Of a stretch of 41,533 nucleotides of DNA, positions 4,209-29,113 are shown piece by piece. The notes under the pieces were generated by a model. That model was not told the origin of the DNA and ran no database searches. It saw only the letters and a program-made list of their open reading frames with translations. The DNA is taken from the IMG/VR virus record IMGVR_UViG_3300031456_000011, positions 1 to 41,533 of that record; one strand, given 5' to 3'. A program made the position numbers and the translations under genes. This DNA is from a virus. Each line of letters begins with the position of its first letter. The stretch's first letter is position 1.

Positions 4209-4435
4209 CCACCTCCGCCGTGCGCTCCCGGGACACCCCGGGCGGCACGGCCGAACCCCAGGTCGTCGGCGTGCTCGTCATCGACGCCGACAACGGCAGG
4301 GCCCGTTACGACTGCCACCGGCCCGGCTGCCCGAAGCGCCGCGAGGGCCCGGTGTACGGGGCCGCGATCCCGGAGTGGTCCAAGACCGTCAGGGCCGAGC
4401 ACATCGCCCAGTACCACCCGGGGGAGCAGCCTTGA
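4205..4435 (+). CDS. Small zinc-finger-like protein
   Basis: 76-aa protein, probable TTG start at 4205 overlapping the previous stop (TTGA), with GGCGGGG before it; GTG 4220 is an alternative. Residues 35-72 contain C-x4-C (CHRPGC) followed by H-x4-H (EHIAQYH), a spacing that fits a C2H2-type zinc finger binding nucleic acid or protein. It sits directly before the primase-helicase, whose TTG start overlaps its stop, so the two are probably made together. Family not recognised; zinc binding is inferred from residue spacing only. Confidence 0.55.
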   Translation: MTTSAVRSRDTPGGTAEPQVVGVLVIDADNGRARYDCHRPGCPKRREGPVYGAAIPEWSKTVRAEHIAQYHPGEQP

Positions 4436-7290
4436 CCGACTCGCAGACTCCAGACCTCCGGGCAGCAGCCCGCGAGCTGCACGACGCGGGCCTGTGCGTG
4501 CTGCCCATCAAGGCCGACGGCACCAAGAAGCCAGCCGTGGCGTGGCTCGAATACAAGGTGGCCCGGACCACGCCCGAGCAGCACGACACCTGGTTCGGCG
4601 GAGACCGAGCCCGCGGCATCGCCGTGGTGTACGGCGAGGTGTCCGGCGGCGTTGAGCTGATCGAGTTCGAGGGCCTCGCCATCCGTGAGGGCCTGCTCGA
4701 CGACGTCACCCAGATCATGAACGACTCGGGACTTGGCGAGCCGTGGGCCGCTGTCCTCAGCGGCTGGGTCTCCGAGTCGCCTTCCGGCGGCCGGCATTAC
4801 CGCGTCCGCGTCGAGGGTGGCGTACCCGGCAACAGCAAGCTGGCCTCTCGCCTCGCCCGCGAGGACGAGTACACCGAGGAAGAGCGCCAGCGGATCCGGG
4901 AGAAGCCGAACGCTCGCATCGTCCGCGTCCTCATCGAGACCCGCGGCGAGGGCGGGTACGGCCTCGTCGAACCGTCGAGCGGTGCCGTCCATGCTTCCGG
5001 GCGTCCGTACGTCCGGCTGGCAGGTGGCCCGGACGCCGTCCCCGTCCTGGACGCCGAGACGGTTGACGCGATCCGCAACGCCTGCCGCATGGTGGACGCG
5101 CTCCCCCAGCCCGAGGCCGTGAAGACCGCACCGCGCCCCGCGCCCCCGCGCAATGACGGGAGCCTGCGGCCCGGCGACGACTTCGAGGCTCGCGCGTCCT
5201 GGGAGGACATTCTCCGGAGCGTCTTCCGCCCGCTGTCCACCCGTGGCAGTGAGACGTACTGGGGATGGGCCGATGGCGTCGGCGGTGTGAAAGCGACGAC
5301 CGGGAAGGACGAGCACGACCGCCTGTTCGTCTTCGCCACCGGGTCCGAGTTCCAGAGCGAGGTGCCGTACAGCAAGTTCGGCGCGTACGCCCTGCTCAAC
5401 CACAGCGGTGACCACAAGGCCGCCGCCCGTGAGCTGGCCCGCCAGGGCTTCGGCAGCCGCCACCTGGCCTCGGTTGGCGCTCCGTCCGCCGCACCCGCAC
5501 CCACCGCCCCTACCCCCGACACGGCGCCCGACGAGGACGAGCACACCAGGGCCGACGAGGAGCAGGCTCACAAGGCCGACACCGCTCGTGAATCGGAAGG
5601 CTTTGGGTACGCCGACACCTTCGACCTACCGCTCGGCGTCCGTACGCCGTACGACTACCGGGTCACCGGCAGGGGCGTCGAGGTGCTCAGCCAGAGTGGC
5701 GAAAGCTGGACACGGGTCACCTTCGCCCCGCTGGTGGTGACGGCTACCTTCGAGGACCCCGAAGGCGACCAGTACGTAGAGCTCTCGTGGATCGACCGCA
5801 GTCTCGGACGGCCCCGCCGTATCTCCCGCATCGTCAGCCGCGAGACCGCGAAGCGCGGGCGGAAGCTGATCGAGACGCTCGGCTCAGCTGGACTCCCCGC
5901 AGTCGAGGGCGACGCGAGGGCCGTCGAGAAGTGGCTCGCCGAGTTCGAGGCAGAGAACGTCCACCGCATCCCGTCTGAGCAGCTGGCCCGCTGGCTGGGC
6001 TGGCAGGACGACGGCACGTTCGTCTCCTCGCCCGAGGACGGCATCAAGGTGGACACCGCCTTCGAGGAGCAGCGCGGCCCCGCCCGAGCACACGCCAGGA
6101 AAGGGACCCTTGAGGACTGGCAGGCGACCGTCGCCCACCTCGCCGGCTACCCGGTGCCGCGCGTCGCCGTCGCCGCCGCGCTCGCTGCTCCGCTGCTCAA
6201 GCCGCTCGGCCTGAACTCCTTCACCCTGGATATCTCCAGCCGGTCTACCAAGGGGAAGACGACCGCGCTTCAGGTCGCGCTCAGCGTGTGGGCCGACCCG
6301 TCCGAGCACGCGAGCGCCATGTCCAACTGGCGCACCACCCTGTACGCGATCGAGAAGCGGCTGAACCTGGTGCGCGGGATCGTCACCGTGTTCGACGAGA
6401 CGATGGCAGTCACGGACGACAGCCTCATCGACGAGGTGCTCTACCAGCTCCCGATGAACCACGGGAAGGCGCGCAGCGGCGGGGCGTTCGGCAACATGCT
6501 GCCCTGGGAGACGATCCTCCTCTCATCCGGTGAGCGCCCGGCGCTGAGCTTCACGACGAGCCAGGGCGCGGCGGCCCGCATCCTCGGAACGACCATCGCC
6601 CCGTTCGGCGACGGAGGCGGCCCGACGGCGGCAGCAGCCCGTGAGGGCGTCCTCGCCAACCATGGCCACGCGGGGCCGGAGTTCATCCGGTACATCCTCA
6701 GCGGCCTCGCCCAGCCGAACGGCAGGGAGAAGCTCAAGGAACATCACCGCACGCTGGTCGACGAGTTCCGTGGCGCCGGCGACATGACCAACAGGCGCGC
6801 GCCCATGGTCGCCGCGCTGGTCCTCGCCGAGACGCTGGCCTGCCGAACAGGCCTGCTGCCGTACGAGCCGCTCACCCACGATGTGTGGCGCTCGCTGTTC
6901 ACCGCCCACAACCCCACCGACAACCGGCCGCAGATGGCCTTGGACGTCCTTCGCGAGTACGTCGCAGGGCACGCCCACGAACTTTTCACCACCACTCGCG
7001 CGGCCATGAACGAGAAGCCGCCGTACTCCGGATGGCTCGGCGCCCTGTCCACCAAGGACGGCGTAACTGAGGTCGCGCTGCTGCCGGAGCGCGTACGCAA
7101 GATCCTCGCCGAGGCGGACTACTCGCTCGACGCCGTAGTCGGCAGCTGGGTCGACGCCGAGTACCTCAAGGTGCTGAAGAGCCAGCGCCCGGCGCACCTG
7201 TTGCCGCGCCGCTTCGACGGCGTCCGCGCAAAGTGCCTGGCGTTCACGCCCGACGGGATCAGCTTCGGCGACGAGGACGAGGCGGCATGA
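4432..7290 (+). CDS. Primase-polymerase / DUF927 helicase fusion (phage replication protein)
   Basis: 952-aa protein from TTG 4432; a longer frame reading (from 4063) runs through two upstream genes and is discarded. The N-terminus (about 1-200: ELHDAGLCVLPIKADGTKKPAVAW, GIAVVYGEVSGGVELIEFEG, SPSGGRHYRVRVEGG) is a bifunctional DNA primase/polymerase (prim-pol) domain. The C-terminal half resembles DUF927-type hexameric helicases: Walker A STKGKTTA at about 604-611 and Walker B VTVFDE at about 650-655. A Pro/Ala/Glu-rich linker (about 345-380) joins the halves. This architecture is common in phages and integrative elements and supplies priming and unwinding at an origin. It is followed directly by an iteron-rich gap, the likely origin. 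Confidence 0.85.
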   Translation: MTDSQTPDLRAAARELHDAGLCVLPIKADGTKKPAVAWLEYKVARTTPEQHDTWFGGDRARGIAVVYGEVSGGVELIEFEGLAIREGLLDDVTQIMNDSGLGEPWAAVLSGWVSESPSGGRHYRVRVEGGVPGNSKLASRLAREDEYTEEERQRIREKPNARIVRVLIETRGEGGYGLVEPSSGAVHASGRPYVRLAGGPDAVPVLDAETVDAIRNACRMVDALPQPEAVKTAPRPAPPRNDGSLRPGDDFEARASWEDILRSVFRPLSTRGSETYWGWADGVGGVKATTGKDEHDRLFVFATGSEFQSEVPYSKFGAYALLNHSGDHKAAARELARQGFGSRHLASVGAPSAAPAPTAPTPDTAPDEDEHTRADEEQAHKADTARESEGFGYADTFDLPLGVRTPYDYRVTGRGVEVLSQSGESWTRVTFAPLVVTATFEDPEGDQYVELSWIDRSLGRPRRISRIVSRETAKRGRKLIETLGSAGLPAVEGDARAVEKWLAEFEAENVHRIPSEQLARWLGWQDDGTFVSSPEDGIKVDTAFEEQRGPARAHARKGTLEDWQATVAHLAGYPVPRVAVAAALAAPLLKPLGLNSFTLDISSRSTKGKTTALQVALSVWADPSEHASAMSNWRTTLYAIEKRLNLVRGIVTVFDETMAVTDDSLIDEVLYQLPMNHGKARSGGAFGNMLPWETILLSSGERPALSFTTSQGAAARILGTTIAPFGDGGGPTAAAAREGVLANHGHAGPEFIRYILSGLAQPNGREKLKEHHRTLVDEFRGAGDMTNRRAPMVAALVLAETLACRTGLLPYEPLTHDVWRSLFTAHNPTDNRPQMALDVLREYVAGHAHELFTTTRAAMNEKPPYSGWLGALSTKDGVTEVALLPERVRKILAEADYSLDAVVGSWVDAEYLKVLKSQRPAHLLPRRFDGVRAKCLAFTPDGISFGDEDEAA

Positions 7291-7616
7291 GGGCCGCCAC
7301 GGCGATGGTACGCACGAGGTGCGTACCACCCGCTCGCCCGCATCACCGCAGCTCAGAGCGTCCTCAGGCGCGCTTTGCGAGGTGGTACGCACTCGCCCGG
7401 AAATGGCACCCCTCAGGCGTGAGCGTGTGCGCGTGTGTGTGCGGGCGAGTGCGCACACATCGACCCCTGTCTGTTTCTGCGTACCTGCGTACCACTGTCT
7501 CTAGAGAGAGACATAACAGCAGCTCAGAGCCTGTTTTTGCCCGGTACGCAGCCGGTACGCAGCCGGTACGCAGTGCGTACCGCCTCTCTCCCCTCTCCAT
7601 CGGATCGAGGTGACCC
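7291..7616. repeat. Iteron-rich intergenic region, candidate replication origin
   Basis: This 326-bp gap has no gene. It carries nine exact copies of GGTACGCA or its complement TGCGTACC: 7307(+), 7320(-), 7384(+), 7478(-), 7486(-), 7543(+), 7554(+), 7565(+), 7574(-). The three at 7543-7572 are spaced exactly 11 bp (one helical turn). 7307-7327 forms a 9-bp perfect inverted repeat. Also present are a GT-alternating stretch (7425-7440), GTGTGCGC/GCGCACAC (7425, 7451) and GTCTCT/AGAGAC (7497-7512). It lies between primase-helicase and SF2 helicase, so a replication origin with iterons is the best reading; a regulatory array is the alternative. Confidence 0.7.
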
Positions 7617-9224
7617 ATGTCCTTCGCACCCCGCCCCTATCAGGTCGACGCGATCGAGGCGCTCCACCGTGGTTGGAGCACCGGCCAGACCCGCATCGCC
7701 GTCGTTCTCCCGACCGGCGCCGGTAAGACCGTCGTCTTCTCCCACCTGGCCCACCAGATGCTCGACAAGCTCGACGGCCGCCGAGCGCTCGTCATCGCCC
7801 ACCGCGAGGAGCTGATCGAGCAGGCCGCTTCCAAGCTGCTCGCCGTCGACCCGATGCTGCGCGTCGGCATCGTCAAGGCCCAGCGCGACGACCACCACGA
7901 CGCCGACGTGATCGTGGCCAGCGTCCAGACCCTGGCCGTACCCAAGCGCCGCGAGGCCATCCGCGACATCGGCCTGATCATCGTGGACGAGTGCCACCAC
8001 GCCGCCGCTCCCACCTACATGGAGGTCCTCCAGCACTTCGGAGCCTGGGACGGCGTACCGACGGCCGGCTTCACCGCCACGATGACCCGGACCGATGGCG
8101 GCCTCGCCGAGGTCTGGCAGGACGTCGTCTTCCGCCTCGACATCCTCGACATGATCAGCGACGGCTATCTCTGCGACGTCCGCGGCAAGGCCATCACCGT
8201 CGACACCCTCGACCTCAACAAGGTCAAGACCCGCGGCGGCGACCTGATCGACGGCCAACTCGGCAAGGCGCTGGAAGACTCCGGCGCGCTCGACGCGATC
8301 GCCAAGGCCTACGTCGACCACGCCAGCGACCGCCCGGGCGTCGTCTTCACGCCGACCGTGGCGACCGCCCAGGGCGCCGCCGCCGCGCTGCGGGCCGTCG
8401 GAATCAAGGCCGCCCCGGTCTGGGGCGACATGGGCCGCGACGAGCGCCGCGCGACCCTCGCCCAGTACGCGGCGGGCGACGTGCAGGTGCTTACCAACTG
8501 CATGGTGCTCACGGAGGGGTTCGACGCCCCGCACACCTCCTGCATCGTGGTCGCCCGGCCCACCAAGAGCGCCGGCCTGTACGTGCAGATGGTCGGGCGC
8601 GGCCTGCGCCCGGCGCCGGGCAAGCGGGACGCCCTGCTGCTCGATGTCATGGGCGCCGCGAGCCGCCACAAGCTCGCGTCGATGGTCGACCTGACCGAGC
8701 GGGACATCGGCGAGGCCGACGAGGGCAAGAGCCTGCGGCAGGTCGCCGAGGAGCACGTGGCCTCCGAGAAGCGCCGGGCCCTGGCCGCGCAGGTCCATGC
8801 CGAGGAGATCAGCCTGTTCGGCGGCTCGTCCATCTGCTGGCTGCGGACGCCAGCCGGGACCTGGTTCATCCGGGTCTCGAACTCGATGACGCTGTTCCTC
8901 GCCCGGGACCACGGGACGCGCCTGTACCGGATGCGCCGCTGGACAGCACAGGACGGCGTACAGCCGCCGCGCGAGGACGTCGCCCGCCCGCTCGACGAGG
9001 CGCTGGCCTGGTTGGAGCAGCAGGCCCGCGTGCTGGCGCCAGGCGCGTTCGTCGACCGCCGTGCGCGCTGGCGAGCGGGCAAGCCGAGCCCGAAGCAGCT
9101 GGGCCTGTGCCGCCGCCGGGGCCTCGCGATCCCTCGGCAAGCGTCGGCGGGCGAGGTCGCCGACCTGATCGACATCGCCCATGTGACGTCGGTCCTCGAT
9201 GGCCTGCTCGCCCGCGCCGCTTAA
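7617..9224 (+). CDS. SF2 DEAD/DEAH-box helicase
   Basis: 535-aa ATP-dependent helicase. The N-terminus has a Q-like motif (RPYQVDAIEAL, 6-16), Walker A LPTGAGKT (31-38), motif Ia (AHREELIEQA), motif II DECHH (124-128) and a motif III-like FTATMTR (about 149). The second RecA fold has VVFTPTVATAQ, a FDAPHTSCIVVARPT stretch and motif VI QMVGRGLRPAPGK (about 324-336). It belongs with UvrB/RAD25-like ResIII helicases common in actinophages. The C-terminal quarter (about 390-535) is specific and includes a segment (ARWRAGKPSPKQLGLCRR) found in nucleic-acid-binding tails of such proteins. It probably acts in replication or recombination with the primase. ATG start is preceded by GATCGAGGTGACC. Confidence 0.9.
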   Translation: MSFAPRPYQVDAIEALHRGWSTGQTRIAVVLPTGAGKTVVFSHLAHQMLDKLDGRRALVIAHREELIEQAASKLLAVDPMLRVGIVKAQRDDHHDADVIVASVQTLAVPKRREAIRDIGLIIVDECHHAAAPTYMEVLQHFGAWDGVPTAGFTATMTRTDGGLAEVWQDVVFRLDILDMISDGYLCDVRGKAITVDTLDLNKVKTRGGDLIDGQLGKALEDSGALDAIAKAYVDHASDRPGVVFTPTVATAQGAAAALRAVGIKAAPVWGDMGRDERRATLAQYAAGDVQVLTNCMVLTEGFDAPHTSCIVVARPTKSAGLYVQMVGRGLRPAPGKRDALLLDVMGAASRHKLASMVDLTERDIGEADEGKSLRQVAEEHVASEKRRALAAQVHAEEISLFGGSSICWLRTPAGTWFIRVSNSMTLFLARDHGTRLYRMRRWTAQDGVQPPREDVARPLDEALAWLEQQARVLAPGAFVDRRARWRAGKPSPKQLGLCRRRGLAIPRQASAGEVADLIDIAHVTSVLDGLLARAA

Positions 9225-12469: not shown

Positions 12470-12757
12470 ATGACCCAGCGGAACCCTATCGTCCCCGGCC
12501 AGGGGGCCAATCCGCGCGTTGCCGAACTGCACCACCTGGCCCGCCAGGACTACGCCAAGGGGCAGCAGGAACGAGCCTCTGTTCCCAACCTGCTCCCGAC
12601 CTACGCGGCCGGTGTCCACGTCCCCGAGCCCAGCGACCTCGAAGTCGCCATCAGCGTCGCCCAGCAGCTGCTCGACACCGACCAGATCCTGTCCCTCCGC
12701 GAAGCCCTCCGCCTCCTGCTGCGCGCCCTCGGCGCCGAAGCGGGTGAGGTCCGGTGA
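12470..12757 (+). CDS. Small hypothetical protein at the start of the transfer-like operon
   Basis: 95-aa protein from ATG 12470 with AAGAGGAG about 8 nt upstream. The C-terminal half (SDLEVAISVAQQLLDTDQILSLREALRLLLRALGAEAG) is two amphipathic helices; the N-terminus is Gln/Asn/Pro-rich. I do not recognise a family. Its GTG-overlapped neighbour (12754) and the following Spd-like genes are all coupled by 4-bp overlaps, so this is probably the first gene of that operon. Confidence 0.5.
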   Translation: MTQRNPIVPGQGANPRVAELHHLARQDYAKGQQERASVPNLLPTYAAGVHVPEPSDLEVAISVAQQLLDTDQILSLREALRLLLRALGAEAGEVR

Positions 12758-13074
12758 CCCGCAAGACCACACCCAGCAGCGAGGCCCGCGAACTGCGCCG
12801 GCTGCTGGCCGTCGTCCTCGACGCCATCACCCTCGACTACGCCGCGCCCGACTACGAGCGGCGCCTTGCCGACCGCGCAGGCTGGGCCCACACCGTCCTC
12901 ACCGCCATCAACAACGGCACCAGCAACGACATCGGCTGGGAGGCCGACTTCCTCCGCAGCAAGCTCACCGCCGAGGAGACCGAGGCCGCGGAAAAGGCTG
13001 TCTGCCGCTCCGTCGACCGCGCCTTCCCCGTCGTCGCCGCCTTCCTCGCCGACGAGCGAGGTGAGCACCGATGA
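12754..13074 (+). CDS. Small hypothetical protein
   Basis: 106-aa protein from GTG 12754 (overlaps previous stop). Helical and acidic (ELRRLLAVVLDAITLDY, ERRLADRAGWAHTVLTAINNG, LTAEETEAAEKAVCRSVDRAFPVVAAFLADE). No motif recognised. It directly precedes the Spd-like membrane protein with an ATGA overlap, consistent with a shared transcript and possibly a shared role in the transfer-like module. Confidence 0.5.
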   Translation: MTRKTTPSSEARELRRLLAVVLDAITLDYAAPDYERRLADRAGWAHTVLTAINNGTSNDIGWEADFLRSKLTAEETEAAEKAVCRSVDRAFPVVAAFLADERGEHR

Positions 13075-13910
13075 AGAACGACTACCTGAAGTGGGCCGCG
13101 CTTCTCGCGGCCCTCGTCGCCACCGCCTCCGCTGAGTACGAGCTGGCCCGTCAGGTCGGCTTCAACCAGTGGGTCGCCGCCGCGGTGCCGGGCGCCCTCG
13201 ACATCTACACCGTGCGGGCAATGCGGGCTCACCGCGACGTCCTCGCCGCAGTGACAGCGATGATCGGTGTCAACGCTGCGAGCCACCTCGTGACGGCCGG
13301 CCTGCTGCCGGTCGATGTGCCGCTCGTCGTCGCCGTGTCCGCCATCGCCCCACTCGTGCTGTGGCGGGTACACCGCCTCGCCGACGAGGCAACCACGGTC
13401 GCAACGGAGGCAGTTGCCGGATCCCAGCAGGACCCCGCAAAGGGTCTCGCCGAGACCGAAACCCCTGCCGTACCCGAGCGTGCGCCCGAGGCGTACCCGG
13501 CGATCGAGACGGCCGTACCTGCCGTACCCGAGGCCGTACCTGCGGGCGCCCGGCTGCTCCCGGTGTTCGACTGCCCCGGAGAGCTGAGCCGCGCCCTGCG
13601 GAGCGAACTCCCGGTGCCCGTACTCGCCGCCGAGCCTCCCCGTACCCGGCGTGCGCTTCAGGGCGGATACGTACCCGAGCCCGCGATAGAGCCCGAACCC
13701 GACTGGATGATCCCGGGCGACTACGCCGACGAGCACGGCCAGCCGGCCGAGCCGGAGGAAGAGGTCGAGTACCCCGACCCGCTGATCCCGAAGGTACGGG
13801 CCGACTTCCCCGACGAGGTACCCGGAGTACGGCGCCTCAAGGAGACGTACAGCATCGGCCAGCCCCGCGCGCAGCGCATCCGTGACGAGCTGACGGGGGT
13901 GCGGTCATGA
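13071..13910 (+). CDS. Spd/DUF2637-like membrane protein (plasmid spread-type)
   Basis: 279-aa protein. Residues 1-105 hold about four hydrophobic helices (WAALLAALVATASAEYELA, WVAAAVPGALDIYTV, VLAAVTAMIGVNAASHLV, LVVAVSAIAPLVLW) in the arrangement of Streptomyces plasmid spread proteins. A long Pro/Val/Glu linker (115-235, many Ala-Val-Pro) follows, then a C-terminal helix-turn-helix-like YSIGQPRAQRIRDELTG. In conjugative Streptomyces plasmids and AICEs such proteins help plasmid DNA pass between hyphal compartments with TraB. Many linker valines use the rare codon GTA before C, giving at least 14 GTAC sites in about 540 bp. Assignment rests on topology and neighbourhood. Confidence 0.6.
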   Translation: MKNDYLKWAALLAALVATASAEYELARQVGFNQWVAAAVPGALDIYTVRAMRAHRDVLAAVTAMIGVNAASHLVTAGLLPVDVPLVVAVSAIAPLVLWRVHRLADEATTVATEAVAGSQQDPAKGLAETETPAVPERAPEAYPAIETAVPAVPEAVPAGARLLPVFDCPGELSRALRSELPVPVLAAEPPRTRRALQGGYVPEPAIEPEPDWMIPGDYADEHGQPAEPEEEVEYPDPLIPKVRADFPDEVPGVRRLKETYSIGQPRAQRIRDELTGVRS

Positions 13911-14080
13911 AGTGGCTTCTCGTGGGCGTCCTGTTGGGCCTGCTGCTCGTGTTCCCGTCGCTGCTCGCCCTGGTCGTCGCCGTTGTCGCAGCGATCGTCT
14001 CAAAGCCGGTCCTGGTGGCGTTTGGCCTCGGCCTGGTGGCCCGCCCGCACCTGCCCCGCATGCGGAGGTGGGCGCCGTGA
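13907..14080 (+). CDS. Small membrane protein (Spd-like)
   Basis: 57-aa protein from ATG 13907 (ATGA overlap with the previous stop), ending at TGA 14078-14080. Translation begins MKWLLVGVLLGLLLVFPSLL and continues with VVAVVAAIVSKPVLVAFGLGLVARP and a basic tail PHLPRMRRWAP: two hydrophobic helices and a positively charged end. Very small two-helix proteins accompany SpdB in Streptomyces transfer operons, hence the tentative label. The 4-bp overlaps on both sides support it as a real gene. Confidence 0.6.
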   Translation: MKWLLVGVLLGLLLVFPSLLALVVAVVAAIVSKPVLVAFGLGLVARPHLPRMRRWAP

Positions 14081-14409
14081 GTGAGGCCCTCGACAAGGCG
14101 GAGGCCGCCGCGAGAGAGGCGGAGACGAACACCGTCGCCGTGCAACTCGCTCTCGCCGCCGTCGAACTCGCGAAGGTGGCCAGCGCGCAGCAGGCGCCGG
14201 CCTGCCAGCACCAGGCGACGCAGCAGGCGCAGTTCAACAGCCGGAAGTGGCTGACCATCGGCGGCCTGGCCATCGTCGGCGGCTGCGTCGCCTGCTTCCT
14301 GGCGATGGCCTTCGCCGTGGCGGCCGTCGCCGTCGCCATCGGCGCGACCTGCGCCACCGCCTGCCTGATCGTCCTGCGCAGCATGTGGCGCGACCTCACC
14401 AACCGCTGA
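14077..14409 (+). CDS. Membrane protein with N-terminal coiled region
   Basis: 110-aa protein from GTG 14077 (GTGA overlap). Residues 1-45 are Ala/Glu-rich and helical (EALDKAEAAAREAETNT, ALAAVELAKVASAQQ); residues about 55-100 carry a helical hairpin (WLTIGGLAIVGGCVACFLAMAFAVAAVAVAIGATCATACLIVL) and a short basic end. It belongs to the same coupled operon as the Spd-like proteins and probably sits in the membrane with them. Family not recognised beyond that. Confidence 0.55.
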   Translation: MSEALDKAEAAAREAETNTVAVQLALAAVELAKVASAQQAPACQHQATQQAQFNSRKWLTIGGLAIVGGCVACFLAMAFAVAAVAVAIGATCATACLIVLRSMWRDLTNR

Positions 14410-14423
14410 CCAGGGGGAATCCC

Positions 14424-14660
14424 ATGAACAAGACCACCCAAGAGCAGTACGTCCGCCTTGCGTGGAACGCCACCGCCAAGGCCGAGCAGCTGGCCCGCGA
14501 CGCCGAACGGGCCGCCCGCAACGAGGACTTGCGGCACAAGGTCGAGCCGCTCGCCGCCGCCGGCCGCCTGTGGGCCGAGGTCGCGCAGGCCTACAGCTCG
14601 ATCGCGGCCGTCCTGCCCGAGCCGCTGCCCGAACTGCCCACCGCCGGAACGGAGTACTGA
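14424..14660 (+). CDS. Small helical hypothetical protein
   Basis: 78-aa protein from ATG 14424 with CAGGGGGAA upstream. Almost entirely predicted alpha-helix (EQYVRLAWNATAKAEQLARDAERAAR, VEPLAAAGRLWAEVAQAYSSIAAVL). No motif recognised. It lies in the transfer-like operon two codons before the next gene; a soluble accessory role is possible. Confidence 0.5.
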   Translation: MNKTTQEQYVRLAWNATAKAEQLARDAERAARNEDLRHKVEPLAAAGRLWAEVAQAYSSIAAVLPEPLPELPTAGTEY

Positions 14661-14662
14661 CG

Positions 14663-14998
14663 ATGCCCAGCTCATACACGCGCGGCGAGAAGCTGCGCCT
14701 GGCCTGGCTCGTCGCGAAGGCCGCCAAGCAGTCCATGGCCGGTGACCGCAACGTCGACACCATCGACCCGCGCATCAAGCGGGAGGCCGACCAGATCGAG
14801 AAGCGGGCCGCCGAGCGCGGAGAGGCCGAGGCCAACGCCGTGCGCCAGCGTCTCGGCCAGGCCCGCCAGGACGCCGCGACCGCGAAGGTCACCATGCGCA
14901 CCAGCAAGGGGCCGGAGCGGGCCGCCGCCCGCCGGGAGATGCACGACCGCGAAGCCGCCGTCCGCCGCTTGCAGCGAGAACTCAACAGGTACAGCTAG
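14663..14998 (+). CDS. Coiled-coil hypothetical protein
   Basis: 111-aa highly charged protein from ATG 14663. Arg/Glu/Ala-rich heptad-like stretches (about 45-108: READQIEKRAAERGEAEANAVRQRL, REMHDREAAVRRLQRELNR) suggest a long coiled coil. The stop is followed by a strong hairpin, so this is the last gene of the transcript before the TraB-like translocase. Function unknown. Confidence 0.5.
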   Translation: MPSSYTRGEKLRLAWLVAKAAKQSMAGDRNVDTIDPRIKREADQIEKRAAERGEAEANAVRQRLGQARQDAATAKVTMRTSKGPERAAARREMHDREAAVRRLQRELNRYS

Positions 14999-15004
14999 CG
15001 CCGC

Positions 15005-15048
15005 CACGGGGCGGCCGTACCCGGCCAGGTACATCCGGCCGCCCCGTG
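15005..15048 (+). terminator. Hairpin before the TraB-like gene
   Basis: Perfect 13-bp inverted repeat CACGGGGCGGCCG (15005-15017) and CGGCCGCCCCGTG (15036-15048), 18-nt loop. It lies between the 14998 stop and the ATG at 15085. It is probably a factor-independent terminator or an attenuator that separates expression of the translocase from the small proteins. Confidence 0.65.
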
Positions 15049-15084
15049 CTCCCGATCACCCATCGAGCAACCGGAGAAGCCAGC

Positions 15085-17238
15085 ATGCCGAACCCCGTCG
15101 TACTCGCCAAGAACGAGGACGCAGGTACACCCGCACCCGGTGTACCCGACGAGCCGGGTACACCGGGTACACCCGTACTCCGTGCCGTACCCGACCTCAC
15201 CACCGAGACCATCATCGACGTCATCCAGGACGCCGACCCGCGGCCCGTCGACAAGCCCGACGAGGCCGTACCCGCGGGGATGTGGATCGCCGAGAAACAG
15301 GCGTACCTCGCCGAAGCCCCGCCCGTCGTCCCCACCTTCCTGCGCAACGCCGCCGAGTTCATCGACGCCGCCCGCTGGACCGTCTCCTACTACGCGCACG
15401 TCACCGCCTTCCACTCCTTCCGGGCGCCCGTCTACCTCGCCCGCCTGCTGCTGCGCTCACCGCGCGGCTCCGGCCGCCTCGTCGTTCGCTGGGGCAAGTG
15501 GGTCGCCGACACCGAAGCCCGGCCCGTCGAGGCCAAGGCCGCCGCGTCCGCGGACATCGAAGCGTGGCTGTCGCTGTCGCGTGAGAAGTCCCGCCGCGTC
15601 CGGCCGCGTCGTATCGCCTCACTGGTGGTCGCCACGGCCACCGGCATCACCACCCTGGTCAGCGCGTTCATGGTGCCCGGCTGGACGGTCACCGCAGCGC
15701 TCGCCGCCGCCGCACTGGCCGGCCTCAACGGCACGAAGGGCAGCAAGCCGCTCATCACCCGCTACGTCGCCACCAACGTGCTGCGCAAGCTCGACTCGAC
15801 CGAGGTGTTCGAGGCCCTCGCCGCCATCGGCATCGAGGGCAAGAAGGGCAAGCGCGGGGTGGAGTTCGCCGCCGAGGTCATGCGGGACGGGCCCGGCTGG
15901 CGCGCCGAGGTCGACCTGCCCCCGGGCATCGAGGCCACCGCCGTACTGGAGAAGCGCTCCGCCCTCGCCGCAGCCATGCGCCGCCCCATCAGCACCGTGT
16001 GGCCCGAGGCCGACCGCACCGCCCACCCCGGGCGCCTGGTGCTGTGGGTGGCAAGCCGCGACCCGGCGAAGGCCGGCCGCAAGCTGTGGCCGCTCATGAA
16101 ACAGGGCCAGGCCGACGTATACGAGCCGCTGCCCTACGGGTTCGACCCGCGCGGCAACCTGATCGAGATCACCCTCATGTACTCGAACCTGCTGGTCGGA
16201 GGCATTCCCGGGTCCGGCAAGACGTCGTGTGCGCTCGCCATCGTGCTCGGCGTCGCCCTCGACCCCACCGCCGAACTGTGGATCTTCGAACTCAAGGGAT
16301 CCGGAGACCTCGACGCCGTCCGCCCCGTCTGCCACCGGTACGTGTCCGGCGACGAGGACGAAGACCTCGAAGCCGCGCTCGGCGGCATGCGCTCCGGGAT
16401 CGCCGAGTACCAGCGCCGCGCCAAGTTCATCAAGTCCCTGCCCGCCAGCGAGGTCCCCGAGGGCCGCAAGGTCACCCGCGCGCTCGCCGAGAAGTACCCG
16501 GAGCAGAACCTCGGACCGCGCGTCATCGTCGTCGACGAGGTACAAGAGCTGTTCACGCACGCCGAGTACAAGGAAGAGGCCGCCGCCCTCGCGACCCGCC
16601 TGATCAAGAAGGGCCGCGCCTACGGCCTGATCCTGATCCTGCTCACCCAGAACCCCGACGCCCCCAGCCTGCCCACCAGCGTCTCCAGCTCGGTCGGTAC
16701 CCGCCTCTGCCTGGCCGTCATGGACTGGCGGGCCAACAACAACGTCCTCGGCACATCCGCCTACGACCGGGGCTTGCGCGCCACCGACATCAGCATCGAC
16801 GAGCAGGGCACCGGCATCCTCGCCCGCGGCCGTGAAGGCATCACCGTGCGCGCGGCGTTCATCAAGCAGACCGAGGCCGAGGACATCGGCAAGCGGGCCC
16901 TCGCGCTCCGCACCGCGGCCGGCACCCTCACCGGGCAGGCTGTCGGAGCGCAGGTCGAGGTGCTCGACGTCGAGACCGTCGTCGACCATGTCCGCGCCAT
17001 CTGGCCCGACGGTACCGAGAGCGTGCACTCGCACCGCCTCGTCGAGGCCCTCGCCGCCTACCGGACCGACCTTTACAAGCCGTGGCTGGACATGGATCCC
17101 GCGGCAGCCTCGACGGCGCTGAGCACGGCCCTGAAGCCGTTCAAGGTGGCCACCCGGCAGCTCACCATCCGGGAGTGCTGTGGCGGCGCGAAGGGCGTCC
17201 GCTGGGCCGATCTGCCCACCCCGGAAGACGGCGAGTAG
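15085..17238 (+). CDS. FtsK/SpoIIIE-type DNA translocase, TraB-like
   Basis: 717-aa motor ATPase from ATG 15085 (GGAGAAG upstream). N-terminus (1-75) is Pro/Val-rich and disordered; about 176-213 hold two membrane helices (IASLVVATATGITTLVSAFMV, VTAALAAAALAGL). The motor has Walker A GGIPGSGKTS (about 372-381), Walker B RVIVVDEVQEL (about 478-488) and the FtsK-type ILILLTQNPDAPSLP stretch. The C-terminus (about 650-717: SHRLVEALAAY, ALKPFKVATRQLTI, GVRWADL) fits the small winged helix with which Streptomyces TraB reads its 8-bp repeats. TraB moves double-stranded plasmid DNA between mycelia as a hexamer. Chromosome-partition FtsK is unlikely: the four-helix FtsK N-terminus is missing and Spd-like genes precede it. 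Confidence 0.8.
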   Translation: MPNPVVLAKNEDAGTPAPGVPDEPGTPGTPVLRAVPDLTTETIIDVIQDADPRPVDKPDEAVPAGMWIAEKQAYLAEAPPVVPTFLRNAAEFIDAARWTVSYYAHVTAFHSFRAPVYLARLLLRSPRGSGRLVVRWGKWVADTEARPVEAKAAASADIEAWLSLSREKSRRVRPRRIASLVVATATGITTLVSAFMVPGWTVTAALAAAALAGLNGTKGSKPLITRYVATNVLRKLDSTEVFEALAAIGIEGKKGKRGVEFAAEVMRDGPGWRAEVDLPPGIEATAVLEKRSALAAAMRRPISTVWPEADRTAHPGRLVLWVASRDPAKAGRKLWPLMKQGQADVYEPLPYGFDPRGNLIEITLMYSNLLVGGIPGSGKTSCALAIVLGVALDPTAELWIFELKGSGDLDAVRPVCHRYVSGDEDEDLEAALGGMRSGIAEYQRRAKFIKSLPASEVPEGRKVTRALAEKYPEQNLGPRVIVVDEVQELFTHAEYKEEAAALATRLIKKGRAYGLILILLTQNPDAPSLPTSVSSSVGTRLCLAVMDWRANNNVLGTSAYDRGLRATDISIDEQGTGILARGREGITVRAAFIKQTEAEDIGKRALALRTAAGTLTGQAVGAQVEVLDVETVVDHVRAIWPDGTESVHSHRLVEALAAYRTDLYKPWLDMDPAAASTALSTALKPFKVATRQLTIRECCGGAKGVRWADLPTPEDGE

Positions 17239-17425
17239 GGGCCCTCGGGCCGGTTTCGGGAAGGGGCTGTGGTTTCACCCCGACCCGAAACCGGTTTCGC
17301 CCCTGATACCGGCCCTGAGCTGGGAAGTTTCGGGTTTCGACCATCTTGGCGGCACCGCCGAAATGGCCTCTGAGAGGTACCCGAGAGCCACGACGCAGGC
17401 GACACCACTGTCGCATCATGGAGGC
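17239..17425. repeat. GTTTCG repeat array downstream of the TraB-like gene (candidate recognition site and/or terminator)
   Basis: No gene. GTTTCG or CGAAAC occurs at 17253, 17286(-), 17294, 17327 and 17334 with a GTTTCA variant at 17272. 17286-17299 is a perfect 14-bp palindrome (CGAAACC/GGTTTCG). 17250-17260 and 17284-17294 form an 11-bp perfect inverted repeat (CCGGTTTCGGG / CCCGAAACCGG) that could fold as a terminator. Clusters of short direct repeats beside traB are where Streptomyces plasmids keep the TraB loading site (clt), so either role, or both, is possible. Confidence 0.5.
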
Positions 17426-19319: not shown

Positions 19320-19509
19320 CCCTGCACGGTTTGCCCGCCTGCTCCGTACATGCTGGACGCGAGGCCAAATCACGCACGCCGCACAAGAGTCGCAACGCTC
19401 TGACCTGCACAAACGTGCAACTCCCGGAGGGGCGCCAGACCAGGGGGACGGCCCAGACTGGGTCGATCTGCTGGCCAACCCCAACATCGTCGGCACCGAG
19501 AAGCGCTGA
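19309..19509 (+). CDS. Doubtful small ORF in the repeat region
   Basis: 66 codons from ATG 19309. The predicted product (MARDPARFARLLRTCWTRG..., ending DWVDLLANPNIVGTEKR) has no recognised family. Most of it is encoded by a segment that recurs in diverged form at 19574-19680 outside any gene, and by one arm of a 21-bp inverted repeat, which argues that the DNA itself may be what is conserved. It could be real, with the repeats intruding on it, or spurious. Confidence 0.3.
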   Translation: MARDPARFARLLRTCWTRGQITHAAQESQRSDLHKRATPGGAPDQGDGPDWVDLLANPNIVGTEKR

Positions 19510-19713
19510 CCTGCGACGATACGGGCGACTGCACAAACATGCAGGTCAGAGCGTTGCGACACCGATGCGAGGGGCACGATTTGCCGAGCGCTCCGGTACA
19601 TGCCGAGCAGGCCACCAAATCGGCACCCTCGCACGGGAGTTGCAGGGCCTTGACCAGGCACGATGCGCACGCACGTGAGGCACCCTCGCTGCACACAAAC
19701 ATGCAGGTCAGAG
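19323..19713. repeat. Diverged direct repeat and inverted repeats upstream of terminase
   Basis: A segment at 19323-19418 (GCACGGTTTGCC..., TCCGTACATGC, ...AAATC, ...GAGT-GCA) recurs, diverged, at 19574-19680. A 21-bp exact inverted repeat pairs 19389-19409 with 19540-19560 (arm contains GCAACGCTCTGACCTGCA), and a 12-bp part (TGCAGGTCAGAG) appears a third time at 19702-19713. Each is next to CACAAACATGC or CACAAACGTGC. This precedes terminase and could be packaging (cosB-like) or regulatory sites. Confidence 0.6.
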
Positions 19714-19866
19714 ACTTGTGAACATGATCGATCCGAAATGATCAGATCGATTCGGCTGAGATCGTCCTGGGATTTTTAGAAATCGGACATATCGCAACCC
19801 CGCGCCCAGCTTTTATTTTTCTCCCCCCGGGCCGATGGCGCGGGAATGATCTTGGAAGGGGGCGTC
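19714..19866. other. AT-richer gap before terminase, candidate cos region
   Basis: No gene. Base composition drops sharply compared with the rest of the window (for example GGGATTTTTAGAAATC and CTTTTATTTTTCTCC at 19769-19825). It contains GATCGAT twice (19728 and 19744), with CCGAA/TTCGG in inverted order. The position between HNH and terminase, together with the repeats to its left, fits a cos or terminase-binding site; a late promoter is the other reading. Confidence 0.4.
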
Positions 19867-20148
19867 ATGGGCCCCGTCGAGCAGGCCGTCCGCGACGACG
19901 TCAGGGAGCTTGGCGACCTGGTGGGCGTCGAGCCGTCGCTCTCCGAGATGGCGTACCGGCTCGCCCGCGAGATCGACGGCGCGTCGATGGCCGAGTGCGA
20001 GACGTGCGGTGAGCCAATCCCCAACCAGGAGGACACCCGCTCTCTCCCTCAGTTGAACCGCGAGCTTCGGCAGACGCTCGCCCAGCTGCTGGAGGGACGG
20101 GCGCCTGACGATGACGACGAACTCGGAGACCTGGGCTCCCCCGACTGA
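19867..20148 (+). CDS. terS: Terminase small subunit
   Basis: 93-aa protein. ATG 19867 is preferred over ATG 19846 because of GGAAGGGGGCG before it. Residues 1-40 (EQAVRDDVRELGDLVGVEPSLSEMAYRLAREIDG) are helical, then a Cys pair (CETCGEP) and a C-terminal helix SLPQLNRELRQTLAQLLEGRAPDDDDELGDL of the form shared by small terminase subunits of actinophages. It recognises phage DNA and loads the large subunit. Its end overlaps the large-subunit gene by 38 bp. Assignment relies on this pattern and on position. Confidence 0.7.
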   Translation: MGPVEQAVRDDVRELGDLVGVEPSLSEMAYRLAREIDGASMAECETCGEPIPNQEDTRSLPQLNRELRQTLAQLLEGRAPDDDDELGDLGSPD

Positions 20149-21676
20149 GTTCGCCGAGGATCTGCACGAGCGGTACGGGCTGACGTGCCCTCCGCGCTGG
20201 GGAACGCCGCGGCATCCGGACCGGCCGTCGTTGGGACCGAAGCTGTGGAAGGTCATGGCCAAGCTCGGGGCCCCACCGATGCCGTGGCAGAAGTACGTGT
20301 CCGACGTCGCCTTGGAGATCGACCCGGACACCGGCCTGTTCGCGCACCGTGAGGTCGGGCTCAGCGTGTCCCGACAGCAGGGCAAGACCGAGCTGTGTCT
20401 TGGCGCCCAGGTGCACAGGTCGCTGGCATGGCCGCGGCAGAACATCGTGTACGCGGCGCAGACCCGGGGCATGGCCCGGCAGCGCTGGGAGGACGAGTTC
20501 TGGGAGAAGATCTCCGGCTCGGATCTGGCCCGGATGGCGCGCATCCGGAAGTCGAACGGCAACGAGGCGATCCTGTGGCCGAGCAAGCGCTCGAAGATGG
20601 GCATCACCGCGAACACCGAGAAGGCCGGCCACGGGCCGCCGCTCGACCTCGGTTTCATCGACGAGGCGTTCGCGCACGAGGACGACAGGTTGGAGCAGGC
20701 TTTCAGCCCGGCCATGCTGACCCGGACCATGGCGCAGCTGTGGTGGGCGTCCGCCGGCGGCACCACCAAGAGCGTATGGCTGAACAAGAAGCGCAAGGTG
20801 GGGCGCGAACTGATCGAGGCTCTGTTCGCCGCGCTCGCCCAGGACTTGGGCGCTCTCCGTCCCGCGACCGCGTACTTCGAGTGGTACGCGCCGGAGGACA
20901 TGCCGCGAGACGATCCGGCGACGTGGCGGGCGACACTGCCCGCGCTGGGCTACACCGTCACCGAGGCAGTCATCCGCGCCGAGCTGGAGAAGATGGCCGA
21001 TGACCCCAGCGCGTTCGACCGGGCGTACCTGAACCGCACGCGGAAGCCGGCCCCGCCGTCCGACCCGAACGTGCCAAAGGCGGCATGGCCCGGGCTGGTC
21101 GACGCGGACAGCAAGGCGAACTCGGACGTGGCGTTCGCCATCGACGTGTCGCAGGACAGGAAGCGGGCGGCGATCGCTGCGGCCTGCCGCCGCCCGGACG
21201 GCAAGGTGCACCTGGAGGTCGTGGCGTACCGGCCCGGTACGGACTGGGTGGTGCCCGCCATGGTGAAGCTGCACGGGCTTTGGAAGCCAGTGGCCGTAGC
21301 GGTCGCCGCATCGGGGGCACCGGCCAGTTCACTCATCGACGACCTGGTGGCCGCAGGCATCGACGTGCCCAAGGACAAGGAACAGCCGGAGCGCGGCGAC
21401 CTGGCCATAATGCGCAGCGGCGACATCATCGAGGCGTGCGGGCAGATGGCCGACGCCATGAACCAGGGCACGGCCCGGCACATCGACCAGGTGCCGCTGA
21501 CCGCTGCCGTGAACGGCGCCCGGACACGGCGCAACGGTGACGCCTGGACGCTGGACAGAACCAGCTCGCTGACCGAGGTCAGTCCCTTCGCCGCGGCGAC
21601 GTTCGCCCGCTGGGCACTGGTGATCCGGGGCCCGCACGTACTGGACGACTACGACCCACTCGATTCGATCTACTGA
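20111..21676 (+). CDS. terL: Terminase large subunit
   Basis: 521-aa DNA packaging motor and nuclease. The ATPase part has a degenerate Walker A VSRQQGKTE (about 85-93), the adenine-binding region before it (PWQKYVSDVALEI), Walker B LGFIDEAFAH (about 180-188) with catalytic Glu, and a coupling stretch WWASAGGTTKS. The RNase H-like nuclease starts with FAIDVSQDRKR (about 341-351, first catalytic Asp) and continues through PASSLIDDLVAAGIDV to a late acidic segment. Length and motifs fit HK97-like Terminase_1/Terminase_3 proteins. It opens the head operon and overlaps terS. Confidence 0.92.
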   Translation: MTTNSETWAPPTEFAEDLHERYGLTCPPRWGTPRHPDRPSLGPKLWKVMAKLGAPPMPWQKYVSDVALEIDPDTGLFAHREVGLSVSRQQGKTELCLGAQVHRSLAWPRQNIVYAAQTRGMARQRWEDEFWEKISGSDLARMARIRKSNGNEAILWPSKRSKMGITANTEKAGHGPPLDLGFIDEAFAHEDDRLEQAFSPAMLTRTMAQLWWASAGGTTKSVWLNKKRKVGRELIEALFAALAQDLGALRPATAYFEWYAPEDMPRDDPATWRATLPALGYTVTEAVIRAELEKMADDPSAFDRAYLNRTRKPAPPSDPNVPKAAWPGLVDADSKANSDVAFAIDVSQDRKRAAIAAACRRPDGKVHLEVVAYRPGTDWVVPAMVKLHGLWKPVAVAVAASGAPASSLIDDLVAAGIDVPKDKEQPERGDLAIMRSGDIIEACGQMADAMNQGTARHIDQVPLTAAVNGARTRRNGDAWTLDRTSSLTEVSPFAAATFARWALVIRGPHVLDDYDPLDSIY

Positions 21677-21687
21677 AGGGGGGCGTA

Positions 21688-21864
21688 GTGCGCGAGCGGA
21701 TGACGACCGCGCTCGACACCGTCGGCCTGCTGCTCGTGGCGGCCGGGGCGGGCGCAGGGGTGTATCGGTGGCTGGGGTGGGCGGCGATGGCCGCCAGCGG
21801 CGCCGTGGTCCTCGCTGGTTCCTGGCTGGCTGCGGGGGCCGGCAGGAAGGGCGGTAAGACGTGA
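21688..21864 (+). CDS. Small two-helix membrane protein between terminase and portal
   Basis: 58-aa protein from GTG 21688 (GGGGGGCGTA upstream), ending at TGA 21862-21864. The sequence TTALDTVGLLLVAAGAGAGVYRWLG and WAAMAASGAVVLAGSWLAAGAG gives two hydrophobic helices, with basic ends (MRERM, RKGGKT). Small membrane proteins in this exact slot recur in Streptomyces siphophages; their job is unknown. The 4-bp overlap with the portal gene supports it. Confidence 0.65.
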   Translation: MRERMTTALDTVGLLLVAAGAGAGVYRWLGWAAMAASGAVVLAGSWLAAGAGRKGGKT

Positions 21865-23039
21865 GTCTCTTCCGACGCCGCGACTACGCGGGGCAGACCG
21901 CCGACCAGATGATCCCGCCGCGGCCTGGCATGGGCGGCGGGTCCCCGGTGGTCACGAACGAGACGGCGCTGAGGCACAGCGCGGTGTGGGCGTGCCTGCG
22001 GCTGCGCGCGAACCTCATCAGCACCATGCCCGTGGACCTGTTCCGCAAGGTGGAGGGGATCCAGGTCGAGGTGCCCAAGCCGACCGTGCTGATCACCCCC
22101 GGTGGGGACAAGGTCAAGATGCCGGAGTGGATGTACTCCAGTCAGTTCGACCTCGACCGGGCGGGCAACACGGTGGGGCTGATCACCGCCAGGGACGGGC
22201 TGAACCTGCCGGCGCGCATCGAGCTGGTGCCGAGCAGCGACGTCACGGTCCGGATGCGCAAGGGCAAGCTGACCTACCGCATCGCAGGCACCACCTACCA
22301 GCCCGACGAGGTCTGGCACGAGAAGCAATACACGGTCCCGGGCCTGCCGGTCGGCCTGTCGCCGGTGGCGTACGCCGCGTGGTCGATCAGCGAGTACCTG
22401 TCCATCCAGCAGTTCGCGATGGACTGGTTCCGCAACGGTGCGGTGCCCAGTGCCCACCTGAAGAACACCGCGAAGACGATCACGCCGTCGGTGGCCGACG
22501 AGACGAAGCAGCGCTTCAAGGCGGCCGTCCAGGGCCGGGACCTGTTCGTCACCGGCAACGACTGGGACTACGAGATGATCCAGGCCGAGCAGGCGGGCGC
22601 TGACTGGATCGCCGCGAAGCAGTTCGGCATCGGTGACATCGCCCGGTTCTTCGACTGCCCGTCCGACCTGATCGATGCGTCGGTGTCCGGCAGCTCGGTC
22701 ACCTACGCGAACATGACGCAGAGGAACTTGCAGTTCCTGGTGATGTCCCTGGGCCCGGCCGTGTCACGTCGCGAGGACGCGCTCTCTGATCTCTCCTCGC
22801 GTCCGCGGTTCGTGAAGCTGAACCGCAACTCGCTGCTGTCGATGGACCCGCAGACTCAGGCCAGCGTGATCAGCACGCGCATCACCTCGCGGACGCTGGC
22901 GCCGTCCGAGGCCCGCGCCCTGTACGACCTGCCCCCGTTCACCGAGCAGCAGAAGGCCGAGTTCGACCGGCTGTTCGGCAAGGGCACCACTCCGACGCCC
23001 ACCACCGCGACCCCGCAAGCAGGAGGAGCACCCTCATGA
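21861..23039 (+). CDS. Phage portal protein (HK97 family)
   Basis: 392-aa protein from GTG 21861. Twelve copies form the ring at the capsid vertex through which DNA passes. The family is shown by NETALRHSAVWACLRLRANLISTMPVDLF (start of the wing domain), the VPSSDVTVRM...KLTYRI strand region, EVWHEKQY, the stem region LSIQQFAMDWFRNGAVPSAHL and the FGIGDIARFFDCPSDLI helix typical of HK97-type portals. The Pro/Thr-rich end (TTPTPTTATPQAGG) is disordered. It is coupled by overlap to both neighbours. Confidence 0.92.
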   Translation: MSLFRRRDYAGQTADQMIPPRPGMGGGSPVVTNETALRHSAVWACLRLRANLISTMPVDLFRKVEGIQVEVPKPTVLITPGGDKVKMPEWMYSSQFDLDRAGNTVGLITARDGLNLPARIELVPSSDVTVRMRKGKLTYRIAGTTYQPDEVWHEKQYTVPGLPVGLSPVAYAAWSISEYLSIQQFAMDWFRNGAVPSAHLKNTAKTITPSVADETKQRFKAAVQGRDLFVTGNDWDYEMIQAEQAGADWIAAKQFGIGDIARFFDCPSDLIDASVSGSSVTYANMTQRNLQFLVMSLGPAVSRREDALSDLSSRPRFVKLNRNSLLSMDPQTQASVISTRITSRTLAPSEARALYDLPPFTEQQKAEFDRLFGKGTTPTPTTATPQAGGAPS

Positions 23040-23842
23040 CCGACATGGCGACCCTGCGGCAGCAGGCTGCCCAGTCCCGCGCCGGCGCGGCGGGCTCGAC
23101 CTCGATGGCCGTCCCCCGCGACCGGCCCGAAAGCCCGGAGATCCGGTTCACCTCGCAGCTGCGTGCGAAGAAGGTCACGCGCGACGACGGCATGGACTGG
23201 TACGAAGTCGAGGGCTACGCCTCGGCGTTCGAGCAGGGCTACGAGATGTGGGACATGTTCGGCCCTTACACGGAGGTCGTCTCCAAGGGGGCCGCGGACA
23301 AGACGTTGGGCGCCGACCCCGAGGTGGTGTTCCGCTTCAATCACGCGGGCACACCGATGGCCTCGACGCGCAACAGCCGCCTGGAACTGTGGGCGGACGA
23401 TCAGGGGCTTGGGCAGCGCGCGTTCCTGAATCCGAAGCGGTCGGACGTGCAGCTGCTCGTCCAGGCCATCGAGGACCAGGACGTGCGCGAGCAGTCGTTC
23501 ATGTTCCGCATCACCTCGGGTCAGTGGTCCCCGGACTACACCGAGTACCGCATCCAAGAGTTCGACCTTGAGCGCGGCGACGTCGGTCCCGTGACCTACG
23601 GCGCCAACCCGCACACGTCCATCGCGGCGCGCTCCGGCGAGTTCCTGGACCTCATCCCGAACCTGCCGGCGCTGCTCGCCCGCGAGGCGTACTCGCGGCT
23701 CGGCCAGCGCTCCGACCTGACCACCGCCCCCGTGCCCGCGCCGCAGACGCCGGCGTCCGCACGCGCGGCGGCCCCGACCGCCACCGGGCGGTCGATCTCC
23801 ATGCTCCGCACTCAGCTGCTCGTCGGCCTCGACGAGGACTGA
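23036..23842 (+). CDS. HK97-family prohead protease
   Basis: 268-aa maturation protease that cleaves the capsid protein delta domain. Residues about 40-175 hold the S78-like fold: YEVEGYASAFEQGYEMWDMFGPYTEVV, the His in FRFNHAGTPMAST (about H103) and the Ser in REQSFMFRIT (about S153), in the usual order, followed by DVGPVTYGANPHT. The N-terminal 30 residues and C-terminal 45 are Ala/Pro-rich and probably removed by self-cleavage. It overlaps the portal stop (CATGACC) and precedes the capsid gene after 137 bp. Confidence 0.9.
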   Translation: MTDMATLRQQAAQSRAGAAGSTSMAVPRDRPESPEIRFTSQLRAKKVTRDDGMDWYEVEGYASAFEQGYEMWDMFGPYTEVVSKGAADKTLGADPEVVFRFNHAGTPMASTRNSRLELWADDQGLGQRAFLNPKRSDVQLLVQAIEDQDVREQSFMFRITSGQWSPDYTEYRIQEFDLERGDVGPVTYGANPHTSIAARSGEFLDLIPNLPALLAREAYSRLGQRSDLTTAPVPAPQTPASARAAAPTATGRSISMLRTQLLVGLDED

Positions 23843-23979
23843 GCACCACCAGACACAGCGCGCTGTCCGGCAGACGCCCGGATGCGCAGCCCTGTGCCGC
23901 CCGGCAGATGACCCGGGTTGGGCCGTGGCCCCGCTGTTGCTGCACCCAACAACCCCATCTGTACGGAGGGAACACACCC

Positions 23980-25401: not shown

Positions 25402-25407
25402 CCCCGT

Positions 25408-25437
25408 CCGGGCCCGGCAGACCGCTGCCGGGCCCGG
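25408..25437 (+). terminator. Perfect 13-bp hairpin after the capsid gene
   Basis: CCGGGCCCGGCAG (25408-25420), loop ACCG, CTGCCGGGCCCGG (25425-25437), starting 7 bp after the capsid stop. It probably stabilises or partly terminates the mRNA so that the capsid protein is made in excess over downstream head proteins. Confidence 0.65.
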
Positions 25438-25465
25438 CTCCGTCACGCACCGAAGGAGATGGGCC

Positions 25466-25816: not shown

Positions 25817-25833
25817 CAGGAGGAACCGCAGTC

Positions 25834-26127: not shown

Positions 26128-26133
26128 TGACCG

Positions 26134-26727: not shown

Positions 26728-26735
26728 GGGGCGCT

Positions 26736-28115: not shown

Positions 28116-28136
28116 CCCCCGCTTCACCTCGTACCC

Positions 28137-28155: not shown

Positions 28156-28181
28156 CGTCATGCCCTGAAAGGGGGCCCGCC

Positions 28182-29101: not shown

Positions 29102-29113
29102 GGGGGGACACCC

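Follow-up and report, generated by a model that had tools for sequence, protein, structure and literature searches.

Transfer by TraB translocases acting on clt sites and the actinomycete integrative and conjugative elements (AICEs) are already known, and so is, as cited in PMC3583192 and PMC4487206, one plasmid-phage of Streptomyces, pZL12, that has both transfer genes and a lytic cycle. The TraB protein of plasmid pSVH1 recognises the word GACCCGGA (PMC5133688), and clt sites, which adjoin or overlap tra, are made of repeated 5-9 bp words that differ between plasmids (PMC3583192). We analyzed a virus record of 41,533 bases (IMGVR_UViG_3300031456_000011, positions 1-41,533; the whole record is called the window here), in which the initial annotation had recognized, at 12754-17238, genes for Spd-like membrane proteins in one operon with an FtsK/TraB-like translocase at its end. 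The close spacing of the genes and their family matches bear out the operon and the translocase. We noticed that the translocase gene (ftsK) is followed by a cluster of short repeats resembling a clt site. We consider it likely that operon and repeats are a working TraB/clt/Spd transfer cassette of the AICE type, carried by a temperate phage (a Streptomyces-type prophage) and swapped with AICEs, which moves excised phage DNA between hyphae or through septa. A literature search, which covered few subscription papers, returned no description of an AICE pump-and-site cassette recurring in tRNA-integrated Streptomyces prophages. The translocase and its putative site are as follows.

15085-17238, plus strand: FtsK/TraB-type double-stranded DNA translocase of 717 amino acids, with N-terminal membrane segment(s), a motor and a C-terminal winged-helix-like domain.
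16918-17235, plus strand: C-terminal domain of the translocase (QLTIRECCGGAKG), candidate reader of the repeat site, from an AlphaFold model and an alignment.
17252-17340, no strand assigned: non-coding clt-like cis site, with GTTTCG/CGAAAC at 17253, 17286, 17294, 17327 and 17334 as direct and inverted copies.

The repeat site, absent from the initial annotation, appears to us to be the strongest piece of evidence. It starts 14 bp past the ftsK stop, is about 90 bp long (sequence GCCGGTTTCGGGAAGGGGCTGTGGTTTCACCCCGACCCGAAACCGGTTTCGCCCCTGATACCGG...AAGTTTCGGGTTTCG) and also holds GGTTTC at 17271. Five of the seven GTTTCG/CGAAAC words of the window sit in these 90 bp or so (17253-17334), and 100 simulated Markov sequences of the same length contained at most three such words in any 115-bp stretch. 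As a positive control, pSVH1 has five copies of GACCCGGA in the 115 bp past its traB stop. The window has, therefore, what marks a clt site in TraB-type systems, namely repeated words of 5-9 bp next to tra. Because the cis site belongs to the module, we extended the end of the module to about 17342.

We then asked how the site behaves among relatives of the translocase. By protein search we retrieved 44 viral loci and 23 loci from genomes, all 47-92% identical, from Streptomyces, Actinomadura and Nocardiopsis. Three to six copies of the word were kept behind ftsK in nearly all relatives of at least 52% protein identity, and in an alignment of 25 relatives the words of the site formed invariant columns, the remainder drifting. 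The site of S. actuosus is intact even though another gene has been inserted between it and ftsK. Two relatives at 36-41% identity carry other words in the same place, GCTATCGATAGC and GCTAGCGCTAGC, which would fit a pump and a site that evolve in step. When 2.9 million viral contigs were scanned with the site pattern only, 51 stretches were found, 47 of which had the end of an ftsK gene 35-139 bp upstream; five of these 47 loci lay on contigs that the protein search had missed (identity 51-87%). The initial annotation had named a translocase devoid of sequence-specific DNA binding as something that would refute its reading; the sequence evidence, a dedicated repeat site that travels with the gene, points the other way.

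The translocase itself carries a Walker A motif (GGIPGSGKT) and a Walker B motif (VIVVDE), and matches Pfam FtsK_SpoIIIE (9e-7) and the PHROG FtsK-like family (1.5e-27). Its motor is homologous to that of pSVH1 TraB (32% identity over 347 amino acids, hhalign probability 99.9). The model of the whole protein was modest (predicted local distance difference test score, pLDDT, of 64); the best fold matches of its motor were FtsK structures (Foldseek E 7e-16), and it also matched the conjugation protein TcpA. A clear hydropathy peak at residues 177-195 marks the N-terminal membrane part, and paired long helices (158-195 and 199-214) lie in a low-confidence region of the model. The C-terminal 106 residues, modelled with 45 relatives, showed the winged-helix order H-E-H-H-H-E-E with a pLDDT of about 90 over the core. 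Judged from relatives, the ATG at 15085 is better supported as the start of ftsK than position 15046.

The cassette is not confined to one type of element. Many carriers are phages: about 30 records are of phage type, and their head modules belong to at least four unrelated kinds. Others are head-less, since family searches, tblastn with head proteins and their gene lists all showed no terminase, portal or capsid; absence of PF04860 as the sole proof of missing head genes was rejected, as this family misses some head types (the portal of S. apocyni differs). The following head-less elements were found, their sizes being the distance between tRNA-type direct repeats.

S. verrucosisporus, 12.1 kb: Prim-Pol, DUF3631 and integrase, the canonical AICE set.
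A. physcomitrii, 15.6 kb: bounded by tRNA-type direct repeats.
S. ureilyticus, 20.3 kb: bounded by tRNA-type direct repeats.
S. acidipaludis, 25.7 kb: bounded by tRNA-type direct repeats.
S. prunicolor, 25.9 kb: bounded by tRNA-type direct repeats.
S. luteolifulvus, 26.8 kb: bounded by tRNA-type direct repeats.

The S. regalis element is of a similar head-less type, but its bounding repeats were not found. Replication modules vary among the carriers (DUF927 primase in the window; Prim-Pol/DUF3631, AAA_25/Toprim and D5_N types elsewhere), and the S. verrucosisporus relative has the RepAM (DUF3631)/Prim-Pol replication genes of AICEs. The survey of related phages for this module, proposed earlier, has thus located it both in phages and in head-less elements. 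Phage isolate records contained no near relative at the DNA level and, by protein, only Streptomyces phage Gilgamesh.

Next, we compared the window with these carriers. The nearest ftsK is that of the head-less S. prunicolor element (92% identity), with which the tree pairs the window (Shimodaira-Hasegawa-like approximate likelihood ratio test, 98). The starred branches of the tree force at least seven switches between phage and AICE carriage, and phage and AICE labels are no more clustered on it than shuffled labels. The DNA of the window and of S. prunicolor is 86% identical over 14408-17339, with little else in common. Similarity to the S. ureilyticus, S. regalis and S. verrucosisporus elements runs from about 15.2-15.3 kb to 17316-17342, where the site ends, and a phage with another head type (G017) shares the same stretch. 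Since the similarity to head-less elements is largely confined to ftsK and the site and does not reach beyond the latter, we conclude that the exchanged unit is the pump together with its site. The pair is common to head-less elements and to prophages with several unrelated head modules at 70-92% protein identity. Judged from these sequences, the cassette has been passed between head-less elements and phages.

Two other observations concern the head-less relatives. Four of them carry a single tape-measure-like gene of 1250-1515 amino acids on the opposite strand with no head genes around it (L072:11384-15355 in S. regalis, L075:7590-11369 in S. prunicolor, L080:6445-10791 in S. luteolifulvus and L105:15119-19666 in S. 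acidipaludis); that of S. luteolifulvus matches a PHROG tape measure family at 2e-138. These elements could be phage satellites or remnants. Also, a regulator region of the window with a DUF5753 XRE-type gene (38957-40865) is 66% identical in DNA to the AICE-like, head-less S. prunicolor and S. regalis elements, where it sits directly behind the transfer cassette as a second shared module.

Upstream of ftsK, six overlapping or closely spaced genes make up the remainder of the operon (12754-14998).

12754-13074, plus strand: soluble protein of 106 amino acids, the first gene of the operon; relatives variable, 37-58% where found, and no family match.
13071-13910, plus strand: membrane protein of 279 amino acids with a hydrophobic N-terminal half and a Pro/Ala-rich middle by hydropathy; homologues 27-39%.
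13907-14080, plus strand: hydrophobic single-helix protein of 57 amino acids by hydropathy, small and Spd-like; homologues 42-73% in the same position.
14077-14409, plus strand: protein of 110 amino acids with a C-terminal membrane segment by hydropathy, Spd-like; homologues 27-73% in the same position.
14424-14660, plus strand: small protein of 78 amino acids, from the gene call and comparison with relatives.
14663-14998, plus strand: DUF6257 protein of 111 amino acids (Pfam 6.4e-10).

By hydropathy, membrane segments are present in the 279-, 57- and 110-residue proteins and in the N-terminal part of FtsK, and none was seen in the 106-, 78- and 111-residue proteins. The 279-residue protein occupies the slot of the DUF2637/Spd-like gene of relatives, whose S. 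regalis equivalent is a DUF2637 protein (1.5e-14). The Spd-like label that we keep for it reflects its gene position and membrane segments.

Several results weigh against a TraB/clt/Spd cassette. The NCBIfam TraB match of the translocase is weak (1e-3) and far below the model cut-off. A fold search with its C-terminal domain gave no significant match in the PDB and only non-significant winged-helix ones, so that calling the domain a winged helix relies on its predicted topology, and no sequence alignment was obtained with the C-terminus of pSVH1 TraB. Such dissimilarity would be as expected for domains that read different words, which is not proof. The 279-residue protein has no Pfam match and no recognised Spd or DUF2637 domain, and its comparison with a plasmid DUF2637 protein gave no match. 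A Nocardiopsis relative (48%) retains just one exact copy of the 6-mer behind ftsK, and four contigs with the site pattern (L117, L124, L153 and L159) have no ftsK relative in the available DNA; there the pattern may reflect chance or another use. Taken together, the proposal of the initial annotation that this is a transfer module of the AICE and Streptomyces plasmid type holds up through the motor homology with pSVH1 TraB, the placement of the clt-like site and the closely similar modules on canonical AICEs and AICE-like elements. Its Spd-like label for the small proteins is borne out in part: membrane segments were found in three of the six, with no Spd family match for the window's own. 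The membrane helix and the motor of the translocase were recovered, and the structure prediction that it had proposed for the C-terminus gave a winged-helix topology.

The module lies between the replication and head genes of a phage, as first described. The main genes and sites of the element are listed below.

331-2010, minus strand: tyrosine integrase of the element (Pfam Phage_integrase 2.5e-6; PHROG integrase 1.8e-34).
4063-9224, plus strand: replication genes, a primase/helicase with DUF927 (4063-7290) and a helicase (7617-9224).
20111-36887, plus strand: virion and lysis genes, comprising terminase large subunit, portal, prohead protease, capsid, tape measure, tail and endolysin.
92-191 (left copy) and 41434-41533 (second copy), no strand assigned: exact terminal repeat of 100 bp, the attachment site, holding a tRNA-Lys-like anticodon-loop/variable-loop stretch.

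In family searches the gene content was of phage type (integrase, primase, helicase, terminase, portal, protease, capsid, tape measure, tail and endolysin), and head, tail, lysis and integration genes all occur in one element, as in a temperate siphophage (Caudoviricetes). AICEs are without virion genes, and the terminase, portal, protease, capsid and tail genes set the window apart from them; it shares with them an integrase and a tRNA attachment site, the 100-bp repeat at both ends. Unlike the RepSA, RepAM (DUF3631) or Prim-Pol proteins typical of AICEs, the replication protein matches DUF927 and phage primase families; it gave no match to PF09250 or PF12307. The right repeat is preceded, inside the phage, by a second tRNA 3'-half-like sequence; this copy looks like an intact attP and the left copy like a host junction. 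The sequence CGGGCCAGCAG is present in two copies near each element end (261-282 and 41319-41340); these paired repeats flank the attP-like copy and are candidate arm-binding sites of the integrase. The terminal repeat structure suggests a circular or tandem form of the element in the source sample. A tandem artefact of an AICE and a prophage was rejected in view of the single integrase, the single pair of end repeats and a gene order that recurs in many records. Apart from these, repeats of CACAAACATGCAGGTCAGAG and its inverse at 19390-19721, after an HNH gene and just before the terminase genes, are a candidate packaging (cos/pac) site; they had been considered as a clt site, but as they adjoin the terminase genes a role in packaging is more likely.

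How might the cassette work? After excision and replication, the circular phage DNA would display the repeat cluster at 17252-17340, and the C-terminal winged helix of the pump would bind the repeated GGTTTCG/CGAAACC words. The pump would assemble as a membrane hexamer at a hyphal contact or septum, aided by the small membrane proteins, and would pump the phage DNA, double-stranded and unprocessed, into the hypha or compartment next to it. There the DNA would re-integrate at tRNA-Lys or start lytic growth. The purpose may be spread between mycelia, within one mycelium, or both; we favour spread between mycelia because pump and site are also found on canonical AICEs.

The same observation bears on an intracellular use, in which pump and site would serve within one mycelium and without intermycelial transfer, spreading DNA of the phage or prophage through septa or to spores, or removing DNA from closing septa; only the intramycelial step of Spd/TraB would then take place. 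DNA movement at septa is known from FtsK relatives, TraB was reported to work together with Spd proteins at vegetative septa (PMC5133688), and here membrane-protein genes share the operon with ftsK. Gene and site, however, also occur on canonical AICE-type elements without virion genes, and intermycelial transfer is the established role of the AICE family (PMC3218068). We regard an exclusively intracellular use as rather unlikely.

A passenger or decaying cassette, i.e., AICE genes acquired by recombination at a conserved island with no gain to the phage, would fit the strong mosaicism, in which ftsK and the site are the best conserved island between otherwise unrelated elements. But the ftsK frame is open in essentially all copies among relatives, and the ratio of non-synonymous to synonymous substitution rates is about 0.2 (0.18-0.37 overall and 0.09-0.24 in the motor), showing that ftsK is under purifying selection. 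The near-invariant site and the presence in so many phage-type records with different head modules argue in the same direction, making a mere passenger quite improbable. That the repeats are the iterons of a replication origin, or else form an RNA element or a terminator, instead of a pump-binding site seems highly improbable, for although origins typically have iterated words and palindromes and the site is intergenic, it stays constant with ftsK while the replication genes switch family, is retained behind the inserted gene of S. actuosus, is replaced by other words in the 36-41% relatives, and gave no Rfam match and no terminator or promoter in scans.

A transfer cassette that works between hyphae or through septa remains our preferred reading. 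A broader proposal goes further: a widespread group of temperate actinophages would be able to spread without virions by means of a working TraB/clt pump, through which naked double-stranded phage DNA would cross septa and pass from hypha to hypha. Pump and site would be a cassette swapped between AICEs and phages with unrelated heads, and the bacterial counterpart of the movement proteins of plant viruses. We see the case for and against this as about evenly balanced. It is customary to regard phages and conjugative elements as distinct vehicles, and here one cassette is common to both. If the proposal is true, lysogens could hand on the phage, with no need of virions, to neighbours that are resistant or have no receptor, phage-resistant Streptomyces would still be open to invasion by contact, and the view of host range, of immunity and of gene flow among actinomycetes of the soil would change. 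The defined 90-bp site and its natural variants make the transfer hypothesis directly testable.

Among known systems, the plasmid-phage pZL12 likewise combines tra genes needed for conjugal transfer with a lytic phage cycle, as described in PMC3583192 and PMC4487206, which cite it, and its gp71 is annotated as FtsK/SpoIIIE-like. Dual transmission in the window, which has genes for both routes, would be of this kind. However, pZL12 is a 90-kb plasmid and the window a tRNA-integrated 41-kb prophage, and their FtsK-like proteins are barely similar (27% over 305 amino acids, E 4e-5). The Pseudonocardia plasmid pPaSha2 (L003; 41.9 kb) has a DUF2637 gene followed by an ftsK 41% identical to that of the window, along with terminase, portal and capsid genes; it differs in being annotated as a plasmid, and a search of the DNA past its ftsK gave no repeat cluster like that of the window. 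It is a second, distant pairing of phage genes with an FtsK-type transfer gene. Phage Gilgamesh shares an FtsK-like translocase (27% identity over 47% of the protein), but is a 129-kb phage with no comparable neighbourhood, and its membrane protein gene follows the translocase rather than preceding it.

With pSVH1 the window shares a homologous motor, the gene order spd-tra-repeats and five recognition words right behind the gene, whereas the words (GGTTTCG/CGAAACC vs. GACCCGGA) and the C-terminal sequence differ and motor identity is 32%. AICEs of the pSAM2, SLP1 and pMR2 types lack the full siphovirus head, tail and lysis module of the 41-kb window, and have a Prim-Pol/RepAM signature in place of its phage-type DUF927 primase. 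Like the window, they combine a tyrosine integrase at a tRNA and replication genes with small membrane genes, one FtsK/TraB translocase and clt-like repeats, and it is on AICE-like elements that the nearest relatives of its ftsK are found.

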